From positions 1 to 55,492 of IMG/VR virus record IMGVR_UViG_3300010373_000056: a DNA stretch of 55,492 bases. One strand, written 5' to 3'. Of the stretch, positions 18,212-23,700 are shown in pieces. Within the stretch, counting starts at the first letter, position 1; each line of letters starts with the position of its first letter. Source of the DNA: a virus. The position numbers and the translations under genes were made by a program. The notes below the pieces were generated by a model that worked only from the letters and a program-made list of their open reading frames with translations, ran no database searches and was not told the DNA's origin.

Positions 18212-18844
18212 ATGACCACGATCGACGACTACGCCAGGGAGAATATCGCCCAAGAGGAGGCCGAGCGCGACCCGTTCACCGTCGAGCGCTACCAGCAGTT
18301 CGTCCGCCACCTGCCACCGGACCCGAGGGTCGTCCTCGACGTCGGTTGCTCCACCGGGCGCGGGGGCCAGGAACTCGTCACCGCCCGCCCCGACATCGAA
18401 CTGTGGGGAATCGACGTCCTCCAATCCCGCCTCGACGCCCTCCCCGACGCCTACGCGAAGCGGGTGCTGGGCCTCTCCACCGACATCCCGCTCGAAGACG
18501 GCACGGTGGATGTCATCGTCGCCGGGGAGTTCCTCGAGCACCTCCGGCCCCGCGACGTCGACCCGACGCTGTGCGAGTTCCAGCGCGTCCTCCGCGTCGG
18601 CGGCCGGCTGATCCTGACCACGCCCAACCCGAGCTCGCTGCGCCTCCGCTTGCAGCACCTGACCGTCTACACGCCCGGGCACCTGACCCAGCACCATGTG
18701 TCGACGTTGCGCCGCCGGTTGAAGATGCACGGATTCCGCAACGTGCGGACCTGGGGCACCGGCAAGATGAGCCGCAAGATCGGCACCAACGTCCCGCTCA
18801 TGCCGCTCTACGGCAGCTACCTGATGCGGGCGGACAAGAAGTGA
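18212..18844 (+). CDS. SAM-dependent methyltransferase, class I
   Basis: A 210-residue protein starting MTTIDDYARENIAQEEAE after TTGAGGAGATCAACA. Cofactor motifs: VVLDVGCSTGRGGQ (motif I), IELWGIDVL (acidic end of beta 2) and VIVAGEFLEHL; then RVLRVGGRLILTTPNP. This is the pattern of small-molecule or glycan/lipid methyltransferases rather than DNA ones. The gene follows the integrase on the same strand and overlaps a lipoprotein gene, so it may be expressed in lysogens and modify the host envelope. Confidence 0.8.
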   Translation: MTTIDDYARENIAQEEAERDPFTVERYQQFVRHLPPDPRVVLDVGCSTGRGGQELVTARPDIELWGIDVLQSRLDALPDAYAKRVLGLSTDIPLEDGTVDVIVAGEFLEHLRPRDVDPTLCEFQRVLRVGGRLILTTPNPSSLRLRLQHLTVYTPGHLTQHHVSTLRRRLKMHGFRNVRTWGTGKMSRKIGTNVPLMPLYGSYLMRADKK

Positions 18845-19347
18845 AGCGCCTGCTGATTGGAGTTCCAGCGCTCTGTCTGCTGGCCGCGTGCGGCGGATCC
18901 AAGACGACCGCGAATCCGCCCGCTGCGCCAGGCACCACGGCGGCGGCAGTCGTGGCGTCCAGCAGTGCGACCGCCTGGACGACGCAGGAGGCTGGGCAGC
19001 AATACCTCGCCATGATCGCCGAGCCCAACAAGGACATCACTGCGCTCCGAGCCCTGCCCGACACCGCCACGGCGGCCCAGTACACCGCCATCGCCAAGCA
19101 ACTGACGACCGACCTGGCGACGTTCGCGACCGCGCTCAACGCCGGGAAGTGGCCGAGCCAGGTGCAGGCGAAGGTCGACGCCGACGAGACCAGTGTTCTG
19201 GCAGAGCGATCCATCTTTCAATCTATCTCACAGGCCACGTCGACCGCAGACATCAACAGCATCCTGTCGGCCAACCAGGCGACGCTCACCACGGCCACGG
19301 CCAACTCCGAGGCCCTGCGCATAGCCTTGGGGCTGGCCAGCAACTGA
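18841..19347 (+). CDS. Secreted lipoprotein
   Basis: A 168-residue protein with GTG start overlapping the methyltransferase stop (GTGA). Signal peptide MKRLLIGVPALCLLAAC has a lipobox LAAC with Cys at 17. An Ala/Thr-rich linker and a helical Ala/Thr-rich domain follow. It would be a membrane-anchored outer-face lipoprotein. Linkage to int suggests a prophage-expressed surface factor such as superinfection exclusion, which is inference from position. Confidence 0.75.
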   Translation: MKRLLIGVPALCLLAACGGSKTTANPPAAPGTTAAAVVASSSATAWTTQEAGQQYLAMIAEPNKDITALRALPDTATAAQYTAIAKQLTTDLATFATALNAGKWPSQVQAKVDADETSVLAERSIFQSISQATSTADINSILSANQATLTTATANSEALRIALGLASN

Positions 19348-19783: not shown

Positions 19784-19950
19784 TCAGCTCCTGGTCGTCA
19801 GTAGCCACTGGTCGTCGCCCGTGGTCAAGTGGTAGGCGTCGGTCCCGCTGGTCAGGGGCCATTGGTCCGTCTCGGTCGCGAGCGGCCAGCGGTCGCCTTG
19901 GGTCGTGAGCAGCCATTGGTCCGGCTGGGTCGCGAGGACCACGTCGATGT
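19784..19950 (-). repeat. Five short Trp-rich repeats at the C terminus of the fibre-like protein
   Basis: Codes for PDQWLLTTQ, GDRWPLATE, TDQWPLTSG, TDAYHLTTG and DDQWLLTTR, each about 9-10 residues. It is a second, unrelated repeat array next to the 18-residue one. Confidence 0.75.
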
Positions 19951-22468
19951 TGCGGCGCGGATGCGGGGCGGATGCGGTGAGGCTGCCAAGGAAGCCCAGG
20001 ACCGCGCTGACACCCTTGCCGATGCGCTTGGGGATGGACCCTGTGAACGAGAGACCGGCGGCTAGGCCGTGCGTGATGCGGCGGGGCATTGAGCCGGTGA
20101 AGGTCACTCCAGCGGAGAGGGCCTTGCCTATTTGCTTCACCTGCGAGCCGGTGAAGGACAGGCCCCCCGACAGTCCCTTGCCTATCGAGCGCGTCTGCGA
20201 CCCGGTGAAGCTGAGGCTGGCACTGAGGGACTGCACGAAATGATGCACCGACGCGGTGGCCAGGCTGCCGGTGAAGGACAGTCCGGCGCTGAGCGCGTGT
20301 TTGGTGTTGCGCGTGAGCGAACCCGTGAACGACAACCCAGCTGTCAGTCCATGCTTGACGTTGCGGGGCATTGAGCCGACGAACGAGAGCCCGGCGCTCA
20401 GTTGCTTCCCGATGGTCCGGGGAAGCGCCCCCGCGAAGCTGAGGCCCGCCGCGAGGCTCTTGCCGACCGAGCGGGCCTGAGAGCCTGTGAACGAGAGGCT
20501 TGCGCTGAACGACTGGATGTAGTGGTGGACCGACGCGGTGGCAAGCGACCCGGTGAACGACAGACCGGCGGAGATCGTGCGTGCCGTGGCCCGAGTCAGG
20601 GAGCCCGTGAAGCTCAGTCCCGCGCTGATGCCGTGCGCGATATTGCGGACAATCGCTCCAGTGAAGGACAGGCCAGCCGTGAGGGCTTTGCCGATCGACT
20701 TGGGGAGCGCCCCGGTGAACAAGAGCCCGCCCGCGAGCCCCTTGCCGACCGACTTAACCTGCGAGCCGGTGAAGGACAGGCCCCCCGACAGGTTCTGTAC
20801 ATAGCGGTGGACCACGGCGGTGGTCAGGGACCCGGTGAAGCTGAGCCCTGCCGCGATGGCGTGAGCGGTTGAGCGGGTGAGGCTGCCGGTGAAGGACAGT
20901 CCGGCCGCTATTCCCTTGGTGATCGCCCGGGACTGGCTGCCAGTGAAGGAGAGTCCGGCGCTGAGGGCTTTGCCGATGGCCCGAGTCTGGCTGCCGGTGA
21001 ACGACAAGCCGCCGGATAGTCCCTTGCCAATTGCCCGGGATTGCGATCCAGTGAAACTCAGACCTGCTGTGAGGATCTTGGCGGTTCGGCGCGTCACGGA
21101 CCCCGCGAAGGACAGCCCGGCGGCCAGGGTCTTCACGGTGGCCCGGGTGAGCGCGCCTGTGAACGAAAGGCCAGCGGTGACGGTTTTCGCGGTTGCCTTG
21201 GATTGCGAGCCCGTGAAGCTGAGACCCGCCGAGAGATTCTGGGTGTAAGCCGTCCCGCCGGATGGCTTGATGAACATGAGCAGCGCGGCCCATGAGCCAG
21301 AGCCCGCGTTGGCGTACCAGTTGGCGTTCAGCGAGCCGGTGGTCCGGGCGACAGCGGTGGCGAGGTAGGACTGGTGGAACGCCGAGCCCGAGCCGACCGT
21401 GGTGGTCGCCCCGAAGGGGTAGTCCGCGATCGGCTGAAGGTTGTTGGAGTTGTTCGAGGACAGGAACGACAGGACGAGGTCGCCGACGGTCGCCACGGTC
21501 CCGGATGGACCCGAGGGGGTCGTGCCGCCACTGGCCGTCGCGGTCGTGATGTCGAGGAACGTCGAGTTGCCGCCGGATATCTCCAGCAGAACGCCGTTGA
21601 TGATGTCGCCCGTCGTCGTGACGGTCCAGGTGTTCGACGCGGCGTCCCCGGTCGTGGTGTCCCCCGTGGTGACCGGGCGGGTCCAGGACGTGACCTGCCC
21701 GCCACCCGCGTCGCTGGCCGTCGCGTCGGATGTGAACGCTACCGTCGTGGCCGGGGCGGACGGGGTGAACGACTGCCGGGAGCCGACCAGCAGGACGAAG
21801 GTGTTGCCGACAGTCGGAGTCGAGGGCAGCGTGAAGGTGATCGAGTTGCCCGAGACCGTCGAGCCCTGGATGTTCTGCTGGACGATGACCGGCGAGGTCG
21901 GCAAGTATTCGGCGAACGTGTCGACAAAGGTGATCGTCGTCAGACCGGTCGACGTCGGGCCGTTGACCGTGTTGGTGACCGTGAACGGGCCGCCCATTGT
22001 GCCGACGTTGCGGACCTTGAAAGTGACCTTGATCCAGTCGCCGGACGTGATCGACGTGGAGGTCGGGGCCACGGCGGCGAGGGCCTTGGCCGCGTCGGAC
22101 GTGCTGTACTCGGTGATCGTCGAGGGCACCGTGCGGTCGGACAGGATCGTGCCGAGGTTCGTGGTGCCCGTCGAGTCGTAGTGCTCGATCAGGATCCCTG
22201 CGCCCGCGTTGGCCGACGTCGAGGACTCCTTGCCTCGGATCGAGGCGGAGATGTTGCCGGACAGGGTGAACGAGGTGCCGACCTGATACCACCAAGTGAC
22301 GGCGGTGCCGCCGCCCGTGATGGTCAAGGGGATGTTGGTCCCGCTCGCCACGGTGTTCGTGACGATCGGGGAACCGGAGGTGTTGGGACCGGCTAGCGAG
22401 GCTAGGGCATATTGACCAGCGCCCCCGAGCGGGCAGACGGACGCACGCGCATAAAGCGTGGTGCTCAT
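19784..22468 (-). CDS. Large fibre-like protein with 22-23 AGLSFTGS repeats
   Basis: An 894-residue protein. Residues ~1-210 and 210-410 are Thr/Ser/Gly-rich beta domains (TITFVDTFAEY, PSTPTVGNTFVLLVGS; GDLVLSFLSSNNSNN) typical of tail-tip adhesins. Residues ~411-834 are an array of 18-residue units based on L(S/T/A)AGLSFTGSxxRxxxKx. The C-terminal ~55 residues hold five short DQWxLTT-type repeats. The array should form a regular beta structure, perhaps a long shaft or multivalent display. No enzymatic motif is seen. It lies beyond the lysis genes, so it may be an accessory fibre. Confidence 0.75.
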   Translation of the reverse strand: MSTTLYARASVCPLGGAGQYALASLAGPNTSGSPIVTNTVASGTNIPLTITGGGTAVTWWYQVGTSFTLSGNISASIRGKESSTSANAGAGILIEHYDSTGTTNLGTILSDRTVPSTITEYSTSDAAKALAAVAPTSTSITSGDWIKVTFKVRNVGTMGGPFTVTNTVNGPTSTGLTTITFVDTFAEYLPTSPVIVQQNIQGSTVSGNSITFTLPSTPTVGNTFVLLVGSRQSFTPSAPATTVAFTSDATASDAGGGQVTSWTRPVTTGDTTTGDAASNTWTVTTTGDIINGVLLEISGGNSTFLDITTATASGGTTPSGPSGTVATVGDLVLSFLSSNNSNNLQPIADYPFGATTTVGSGSAFHQSYLATAVARTTGSLNANWYANAGSGSWAALLMFIKPSGGTAYTQNLSAGLSFTGSQSKATAKTVTAGLSFTGALTRATVKTLAAGLSFAGSVTRRTAKILTAGLSFTGSQSRAIGKGLSGGLSFTGSQTRAIGKALSAGLSFTGSQSRAITKGIAAGLSFTGSLTRSTAHAIAAGLSFTGSLTTAVVHRYVQNLSGGLSFTGSQVKSVGKGLAGGLLFTGALPKSIGKALTAGLSFTGAIVRNIAHGISAGLSFTGSLTRATARTISAGLSFTGSLATASVHHYIQSFSASLSFTGSQARSVGKSLAAGLSFAGALPRTIGKQLSAGLSFVGSMPRNVKHGLTAGLSFTGSLTRNTKHALSAGLSFTGSLATASVHHFVQSLSASLSFTGSQTRSIGKGLSGGLSFTGSQVKQIGKALSAGVTFTGSMPRRITHGLAAGLSFTGSIPKRIGKGVSAVLGFLGSLTASAPHPRRNIDVVLATQPDQWLLTTQGDRWPLATETDQWPLTSGTDAYHLTTGDDQWLLTTRS
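19964..21235 (-). repeat. 54-bp tandem coding repeats in five-unit superrepeats
   Basis: Twenty-two full units of 18 codons plus one partial. Units 8, 13 and 18 are longer by four codons (RYVQN, HYIQS, HFVQS). They fall every fifth unit, giving a superrepeat of about 94 codons (282 bp) seen in units 4-8, 9-13, 14-18 and 19-23. Confidence 0.85.
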
Positions 22469-22518: not shown

Positions 22519-23700
22519 TTAGCTGGGTTCGGGCAGGGTCGTGCCGTCGTCCCACTTGTTGTTCGTCCACGAGTTGTGGTTCGCCGCGTCTTTGCTGGAC
22601 GTCCAGTCGGCCATCGGCCCGTACTGGCCGCACTTGCCGTTCGGCCCGCGCTGGAATGTGTCGTTGCTGAACGTCATGTAGGACGCGGACGGGTACGCCT
22701 TGCCCGTGTTGCCGATATTGGAGTAGGCGCAGAACGAGGGCCGGTAGGGGTCGGCGTTGATGCCGGTCCCGGACGCGGCGAGGAACAGGCTGTTGTTGAC
22801 GGTGACGTGGGCGATGGCCGAGAAGTCGCCGAATAGACCGAGGTCGCCCGAGCAGCCGCCAGTAGCGCCGGACACTTGGCTGACGAAGTTGCAGCCGATC
22901 GAGTCGTGCTCGAGATCCATCCCGACCGTTGCGCCGTTGAGACCGTTGGACCCGATCCCGTCGTAGTGGGTCGCGCCCTTGTCGATGAAGTCGTGCGTCC
23001 ACGAATCGGTGACGACGCAGTTGCCGTCGCACTGGATGCCGCCGTACGCGCCGCCGTGGACGTTGACCCGCGTCAGGTAGTAGTTGCCGCCGACGACCGC
23101 GTCCCGCTGGGAGTTGACGGTCGGCGCGAACTCGTCATCGGTGAGGACAAGTGGTCCGCTACCGGACGCATTATCGCCAGCGGTGTGGACGGTGCCAACG
23201 ATCAGCGAGTCCTGGATGGTGACGCATGGCGTGGATGCGGATGTGGTGCCGTTGCCGCCCGTGATCTCAATATCGCCCGTGATCTTGTAGCCGACCAGGA
23301 CCGTGCCGCACCCGAGGTTCAGCGAGCCCGAGTAGGTCGCGAGCGTCGTCCCGGCTGGGACCCCGGTGTTGGTCGCGTTGGGGAACGCGGCGGGCGGCGG
23401 GGGGGTCGTCGTCGTGGCACTGGGCGTCGGGGACGGAGACGGCGTGGTCGCAGTGGCTGTCACGGTGACGGTGGGACCGGGGGAAGTGACCGTGACCGTC
23501 GATGTGACCGTGCTTGTCACCTGGGGGACGACGCAACTGATCGAGAAGTTCGTCCCGTCATACGACGGCGACGAGCAGGACGCGGCGACCGATGTGGCGG
23601 CGGACGCGCCCGCCACGTATGCGACGATGCCGACCGCTGCCGCTGCGGCGAGGGCTGCGGCCGCGACGGCGGGCCGCTTGACGGCTGCTGGAATGCGCAT
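22519..23700 (-). CDS. Secreted parallel beta-helix protein
   Basis: A 393-residue protein. Signal peptide at 1-35 (AVAAAALAAAAAVGIVAYVAGASA), a small Cys-containing segment, a Val/Thr/Ser/Pro linker at ~58-105, then a right-handed beta-helix-like domain with repeated short strands (VTIQDSLIVG, LVLTDDEF, YYLTRVNVHGGAYGG, CVVTDSWTHDF, VTVNNSLFL). Such domains bind or cleave polysaccharides, but no catalytic set is certain. A cleavable signal peptide is unusual for a virion protein and suggests export from the infected cell. Confidence 0.75.
   Translation of the reverse strand: MRIPAAVKRPAVAAAALAAAAAVGIVAYVAGASAATSVAASCSSPSYDGTNFSISCVVPQVTSTVTSTVTVTSPGPTVTVTATATTPSPSPTPSATTTTPPPPAAFPNATNTGVPAGTTLATYSGSLNLGCGTVLVGYKITGDIEITGGNGTTSASTPCVTIQDSLIVGTVHTAGDNASGSGPLVLTDDEFAPTVNSQRDAVVGGNYYLTRVNVHGGAYGGIQCDGNCVVTDSWTHDFIDKGATHYDGIGSNGLNGATVGMDLEHDSIGCNFVSQVSGATGGCSGDLGLFGDFSAIAHVTVNNSLFLAASGTGINADPYRPSFCAYSNIGNTGKAYPSASYMTFSNDTFQRGPNGKCGQYGPMADWTSSKDAANHNSWTNNKWDDGTTLPEPS

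Follow-up and report, generated by a model that had tools for sequence, protein, structure and literature searches.

In collagen-like phage fibres the number of repeats sets the length of the fibre, and two further systems are close to the one considered here. The tandem BACON arrays of crAss-like phages lie near tail genes, arose by successive duplications in one lineage according to a survey of viral contigs, and have been proposed to serve in host binding (PMC6949934). Ice nucleation proteins are built of 16-residue beta-solenoid coils, among them arginine-rich R-coils, and a basic residue at position 12 of the 16 matters for their assembly (PMC10727499). Here we analyse a tandem array of 18-residue AGLSFTGS units in an 894-residue protein of the IMG/VR virus record IMGVR_UViG_3300010373_000056, all 55,492 bases of which are referred to as the window. 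This protein is probably a length-variable, polycationic fibre of the virion surface, a basic beta rod that goes with a conserved 295-residue partner, p295, as its own sequence, that of its relatives and their gene context argue.

How does the array compare with these systems? Judged by sequence, none of the named repeat families against which we tested it shares its defining features with the array. As in the ice nucleation proteins, where each repeat forms one beta-solenoid coil, a short repeat, a long array and a basic residue at a fixed position come together; those bacterial proteins, however, have a 16-residue unit with TxT and Tyr motifs and basic coils only at the C-terminal end (PMC10727499), whereas the window units have 18 residues, are basic in every regular copy, are borne by a phage and have no Pfam match. 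The BACON arrays are the nearest case we found of tandem arrays near tail genes, but BACON is a named domain associated with carbohydrate binding (PMC6949934), while the window unit is 18 residues long and its protein has no Pfam match at an E-value of up to 0.1. The 431 residues of the window array include 39 Lys or Arg and no Asp or Glu. This sets them apart from RTX repeats, which are Asp-rich calcium-binding nonapeptides, and, unlike collagen-like phage fibres, the units have no Gly-X-Y pattern. By analogy, the array may work like other length-variable repeat fibres, with its basic column resembling that of the R-coils.

An earlier note, made from the letters of the window alone, had counted 22 units and a partial one, with four-residue insertions in units 8, 13 and 18. 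Our recount of the open reading frame (ORF) agrees: the array, at residues 414-831 (approximately 19976-21229), holds 22 full units and a partial 23rd, the conserved positions recurring in register at an 18-residue spacing in 19 of the 22, and the three units of 22 residues are exactly those named, with HRYVQN, HHYIQS and HHFVQS. The note's fixed order of unit types, with a period of five, is borne out when the alignment is scored over all units. Protein identity between units at lag 5 is 0.663, against 0.545 (standard deviation 0.022) for shuffled order, and none of 20,000 shuffles came as high; DNA identity is 0.631 against 0.575 (p = 0.00015). Among lags 1-12, only lag 10 otherwise falls below p = 0.05 (p = 0.019). 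As the four extra residues of the long units were taken out before the test, the insertions do not create this signal. The order begins at unit 4, leaving only units 1-3 outside, and comprises three full blocks of 94 residues (A, B and C) and a partial fourth. Between blocks B and C, 70% of residues and 66% of bases are identical, and nonsynonymous differences per site (pN, 0.24) are below synonymous ones (pS, 0.60), which points to purifying selection on the protein. Charge follows a pattern, too: column 12 is Lys or Arg in all 19 regular window units, and column 16 is Lys, Arg or His in all 19 (14 Lys or Arg, 5 His). In relatives, column 12 is Lys or Arg in 92% of 420 regular units as against 16% of 102 long ones, so that block ends interrupt what would be a basic ladder. 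The tail behind the array is of different composition, with 8 Asp or Glu and 4 Lys or Arg in the last 58 residues of the protein.

On the sequence evidence, the LSFxG repeat is not private to the window phage; it defines a family found in dozens of environmental phages. A DNA pattern of three L-[ST]-F-x-G units at 18-residue spacing picked out 63 viral and 104 genome stretches. For array calls (E < 1e-15) we used a profile made of 175 segments, each three units long, taken from the window and from viral loci; it recognizes 46 of the 63 viral loci, partly by construction, and two of the 104 genome loci. One of the latter, L094, is a Deltaproteobacteria contig from a metagenome-assembled genome that matches without having contributed to the profile; the other, L152, has the same ORF length and score as the viral locus L010. 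Arrays to which the partner gene first led, among them L173, L175, L199, L221 and L222, are outside the profile and still match. Taking any L-S-F-x-G pattern match for a relative was rejected, with 17 of 63 viral and 102 of 104 genome loci missing the threshold, the best of the rejected genome loci being L117 (5.9e-11) and L100 (7.7e-9). By protein pattern, 56 of the viral loci have an in-frame three-unit ORF and seven do not; ten further viral loci were dropped as low-complexity or chance matches (L005, L009, L013, L014, L022, L024, L038, L049, L052 and L061). Four of these, L013, L014, L022 and L052, carry long low-complexity ORFs (YLGFHRFPEY-like) that fit the DNA pattern and are unrelated to the repeat. 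The consensus of 337 units from the window and its relatives is [TA][GA]xLSFxG[AS]LxK/RxTxK/RxL; L4, S5, F6 and G8 were used to pick the units, and columns 10, 12, 16 and 18 are conserved although they were not.

Searched with the window protein, neither Pfam nor PHROGs nor NCBIfam yields anything at E up to 0.1, so members of the family may be labelled hypothetical in existing annotation. An NCBIfam scan of seven array proteins gave a single match, serB, far under the cut-off, and when nine more array proteins and one other protein were compared with PHROGs, the best match was in the N-terminal part of L034 (E 0.0002). PHROGs matches inside arrays are weak (two small families of unknown function for L008, E 0.002; one each for L048 and L044, E 0.03). 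In tblastn searches of 50,697 phage records, in which the BLAST low-complexity filter may hide repeats, neither the whole window protein nor a stretch of L048 had a match, and a five-unit stretch had three, at E 0.3 to 9. A search for related loci with the whole window protein and a sequence search of the PDB returned none. A full-text literature search including peptide strings, its coverage leaving out most subscription journals, returned no paper on this repeat as judged by title or start of abstract among the matches listed.

The insertions that delimit the window blocks share a motif with the start of the array. A Y/F-x-Q motif stands at positions -8 and -6 ahead of the first unit in 13 of 42 arrays, the window included, and in 21 of 152 units of 19-30 residues: 19 of the 35 with at least 22 residues, 2 of the 77 with 20 and none of the 40 with 19. 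It occurs in none of 446 regular units, again including the window. (Identical proteins were dropped from this count; the near-copy L045 and L043, the other end of the L026 contig, were kept.) The window's start motif TAYTQN and its three insertions are all of this type. As the motif occurs at array starts and in long units and is absent from regular ones, the most fitting reading of the window insertions is that the array start is taken up anew at each of them. A second long type, mostly without Y/F-x-Q, is made up of the 20-residue units. Across the family, counted without L045, L054, L058 and L043, 24 of the 62 intervals between long units of at least 20 residues measure 4 or 5, where shuffling leads one to expect 20% (p = 0.001). 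Unit identity at lag 4 or 5 is significant (p < 0.01) in six of 30 arrays, namely the window, L016, L031, L044, L040 and L064, whereas lags 1, 2, 3, 6, 7 and 8 gave two significant results in 180 tests; this set is without L045, L054, L058 and arrays of fewer than 10 contiguous units. In six chosen partner-seeded arrays, L199 peaks at lag 4, L228 at lag 5 and L175 at lag 6, and L170, L221 and L222 have no significant lag; L228 shares a contig with L031 and L170 with L046, so these pairs are not independent.

How did such arrays grow? For the window, the earlier note had proposed duplication of a five-unit block. The order of unit types speaks for this, but the synonymous sites do not: at lag 5, synonymous codons agree no more often than after codon shuffling (0.438 against 0.420 ± 0.030), leaving no trace of block duplication, and the two longest exact matches in the array, of 35 and 26 nucleotides (nt), are both 618 nt or 11 units apart and so out of the five-unit register. 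A match as long as the first (20139-20173 and 20757-20791) arises in about one of 3,000 codon shuffles, so some exchange of DNA seems possible, in an 11-unit rather than a five-unit register. Because the synonymous sites keep no trace, we infer that any block step in the window phage would be old. Adjacent units of the window have a low codon identity (0.364 against 0.428, p = 0.013); active scrambling of codons between neighbours was considered and rejected, the relatives being without this trend. The five-unit order could also be maintained by selection on position, for example by a fixed number of coils per joint, instead of reflecting block duplication. This we regard as possible, if doubtful: the lag-5 synonymous identity, no higher than expected, fits it, as do the intervals of 4-5 between long units found elsewhere more often than in shuffled arrays, and it is opposed by the match of units 13 and 18 at 17 of 18 aligned residues and by true block duplications in a relative. 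The latter are visible in the DNA of L199, where self-alignment offsets of 237 nt (80.6% identity) and 222 nt (75.3% identity) correspond to four-unit blocks of 79 and 74 residues.

The number of units differs between related phages. L178 and L199 have orthologous array genes of 10 and 21 units, with DNA approximately 78% identical at both ends, and their partner proteins are 91% identical (the L178 contig entering this comparison as L201). The copy number, which the earlier note thought could vary between isolates, thus differs in this related pair; a second isolate of the window phage itself was not found. Among loci whose partners are 49-100% identical to that of L055, we count about 22, 24, 15, 15, 24, 34 and 49 units in L216, L219, L221, L222, L227, L228 and L229, taking only array ORFs closed at both ends, the others being cut, unseen or uncounted. 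Counts were set aside for L183 and L230, on which the unit counter failed, and for divergent arrays that it handles poorly, such as L172, L179, L188, L191, L194, L196, L198 and L200. Codon identity of adjacent units far above that of shuffles suggests recent single-unit duplication in L003, L032, L037, L057 and L021. L003 has two array genes of very similar units, one with an exact repeat of 95 nt that looks like a very recent single-unit amplification.

What might the array look like? Each 18-residue unit would form one turn or hairpin of a beta-rich rod, its core contributed by the conserved L4, F6, G8 and L18, so that columns 12 and 16 would align as two basic ladders along the rod. The longer units, which in the window phage and several others carry the array-opening motif, would split it into blocks, often of 4-5 units, as joints or restarts, and the N-terminal region and small neighbouring proteins would attach or cap it. 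The solenoid of 18-residue units envisaged in the earlier note is suggested by AlphaFold2 models, in which a coil-like beta element recurs at 18-residue spacing, over units 1-8 of the array as well as in a seven-unit model, but at weak confidence: for the window array (17 sequences) the predicted local distance difference test score (pLDDT) is 64.9, mostly 64-78 over units 1-8, and the predicted template modelling score (pTM) 0.42, and for seven units (24 sequences) they are 58.2 and 0.40. VIA-align placed the first model closest to a beta-helical antifreeze protein, PDB 3p4g (Z 16.8, root-mean-square deviation 3.8, 256 aligned), the highest-Z match of a weak model. 3p4g is calcium-dependent by its title and binds calcium by way of Asp-rich repeats, unlike the acid-free window array. 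Two viral Foldseek matches at E of about 6e-4, with template modelling scores of 0.33 or less among the matches listed, were not used.

The same units could instead build a homotrimeric beta fibre, as a triple beta-spiral or of intertwined strands, in which each unit would be a hairpin and the long units kinks. Phage fibres are usually trimeric, and adenovirus and many phage fibres are of just these types; the weak monomer prediction would be expected of a fold that needs three chains, and the conserved columns are even-numbered, alternating as in extended strands, with columns 4, 5, 6 and 8 having served to pick the units. The monomer model, on the other hand, aligns with beta-helices, although a monomer run is no test against a trimer; altogether we consider a trimer rather unlikely.

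Turning to the place of the protein in the phage, the window encodes terminase, portal, tape measure and minor tail proteins, as well as an integrase, a DnaB helicase and a DNA methylase. Its terminase is 48-53% identical to those of Arthrobacter, Glutamicibacter and Brevibacterium phages and one Microcystis phage among the matches listed (10 of 2,355 phage records), which makes an actinobacterial host likely. In relatives, the module lies between the genes for the major head protein and the head-tail adaptor (L034, L178), directly ahead of connector genes (L048, L040), ahead of tail and tail tubular genes (L025) or beside a tail-fibre-like gene (L029), and two of nine array proteins scanned contain a Laminin_G_3 (ConA-like) domain. 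Based on gene context and these domains, the earlier note's assignment as a fibre protein most likely holds, and the window protein would be part of the virion. A basic internal head protein or DNA-binding array, residing inside the capsid or at the portal, could also carry 39 basic and no acidic residues, and the head-gene setting of L034 and L178 and a weak match of one partner homologue (L183) to a PHROG head protein (E 0.0016) would suit it; given the ConA-like lectin domains, the fibre-like neighbour of L029 and the position of the window gene beyond the tail genes, we judge it improbable.

The surface fibre that we favour probably has a partner. Homologues of p295 occur at 30 other array loci. 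Setting aside eight loci that duplicate the window or one another leaves 41 distinct array loci. Of these, 14 have too little upstream sequence to be judged, and 27 offer 1.5 kb or more, or a match; in 23 of the 27 a homologue lies ahead of the array on the same strand, as it does in 17 of the 19 loci that extend 3 kb or more in that direction. Conversely, 16 of 31 confirmed partner-seeded loci have an array, and of the 15 without, eight have less than 3 kb downstream. We regard p295 as a co-inherited and probably structural partner. The C-terminal half of shorter p295 relatives matches phrog_5417 (function unknown) in three of four scanned; the window p295 has no match in the 50,697 phage records, and that of L177 matches two of them weakly (E 3e-4 and 7e-4), one of which bears the annotation tail collar fiber protein. 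A p295 profile run against the PDB met only chaperonins, at E 0.042 or worse, judged to be chance. L036 has one partner gene flanked by two array genes, and in L185 (6866-7978), L184 (4676-7321) and L175 (3664-4825) the homologues appear as two adjoining ORFs.

The gene directly behind the array is a closed ORF of 85-135 residues in 17 of 31 distinct cases. The window's own small gene resembles the post-array genes of L027 and L002 (phmmer 1.8e-7 and 7.2e-6) and has no Pfam match, BppU_N (PF10651) included. Among ten such genes scanned, that of L008 passes the BppU_N cut-off (30.1 versus 23.1 bits), which four others, from L029, L064, L016 and L015, match without reaching; the window gene groups with L027 and L002 instead. 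Further on, a small ORF at 18841-19347 (+), behind methyltransferase and integrase genes, starts with VKRLLIGVPALCLLAACGG, which we take to resemble a lipoprotein signal; some phage lipoproteins block superinfection. The features of the array gene and its neighbours are collected in Table 1.

Table 1. Array gene and adjoining genes, positions counted along the window
Feature	Position	Strand	Basis
Whole array protein, 894 residues	19784..22468	-	single ORF
N-terminal region, residues 1-405	21254..22468	-	no relatives in the searches made
Array-start motif TAYTQN	21236..21253	-	sequence
Units 1-3, outside the five-unit order	21068..21229	-	unit comparison
Block A, units 4-8, 94 residues; HRYVQN in unit 8	20786..21067	-	
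Block B, units 9-13, 94 residues; HHYIQS in unit 13	20504..20785	-	
Block C, units 14-18, 94 residues; HHFVQS in unit 18	20222..20503	-	
Block D, units 19-22 and partial unit 23	19976..20221	-	
C-terminal tail, about 5 repeats of 9 residues (DQWLLTTQG type)	19787..19933	-	27-nt tandem repeat 19857-19936
Conserved upstream partner p295, 295 residues	23704..24591	-	homologues at array loci
ORF of 393 residues between partner and array	22519..23700	-	no relatives in the searches made
Small downstream gene, 121 residues	19417..19782	-	homologous to genes directly after the L027 and L002 arrays

Beside the silent synonymous sites of the window and the low model confidence, a number of observations weigh against a block-built basic rod on the virion surface. 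Foldseek against the PDB gave nothing better than E 0.36, and VIA-align also brought up curli, leucine-rich and hexapeptide proteins at Z 12-14, of which the last two likenesses do not favour the rod; ladders of like charge would moreover require a counter-ion. Sixteen of the 35 units of at least 22 residues are without Y/F-x-Q, long units are not spaced with significantly less variation than in shuffled arrays (p = 0.085), units of at least 22 residues taken alone are not significantly enriched at intervals of 4-5 (4 of 14, p = 0.19), and 24 of 30 arrays have no significant signal at lag 4 or lag 5. The window array gene is far from the capsid genes, and the module changes position among relatives, with a portal gene following the array in L175. 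Linkage to p295 has its misses, too: none was seen at L003, it lies on the opposite strand at L004 and after the array at L030, and the array precedes it at L222, while seven partner loci with approximately 4 kb or more downstream carry no array. L048, which also counts as a miss, has a homologue on its contig just beyond the examined stretch (L219). Finally, an adhesive or membrane-active amphipathic polymer that inserts into or coats the bacterial envelope without forming a rigid rod would make use of the hydrophobic columns 4, 6, 10 and 18 beside the basic columns 12 and 16, but the regular spacing across tens of units and the block structure indicate a regular scaffold and render it very improbable.

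We retain the polycationic surface fibre as the probable nature of the window protein. The basic rod would extend to anionic polymers in the envelope or slime of the host, with the co-inherited product of the upstream gene as its probably structural partner. Gain and loss of units and blocks, as seen in the related pair and presumed for the window phage, would change its length and make reach and charge tunable. Tentatively, and as a proposal that could well fail, this may be generalized to a widespread, so far unnamed module of two to three genes in environmental phages, comprising p295, the basic LSFxG array and a small beta protein: a modular polycationic fibre, resized by units and by blocks of 4-5 units, whose Lys/Arg ladders would grip anionic polymers of the host surface and whose block number would set reach and avidity. 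Block-wise growth can be put to the test in the L178/L199 pair, with its 10 and 21 units, and a basic, acid-free rod predicts binding to anionic surface polymers. Through length-variable repeat fibres of this kind, phages may alter their reach without new folds.

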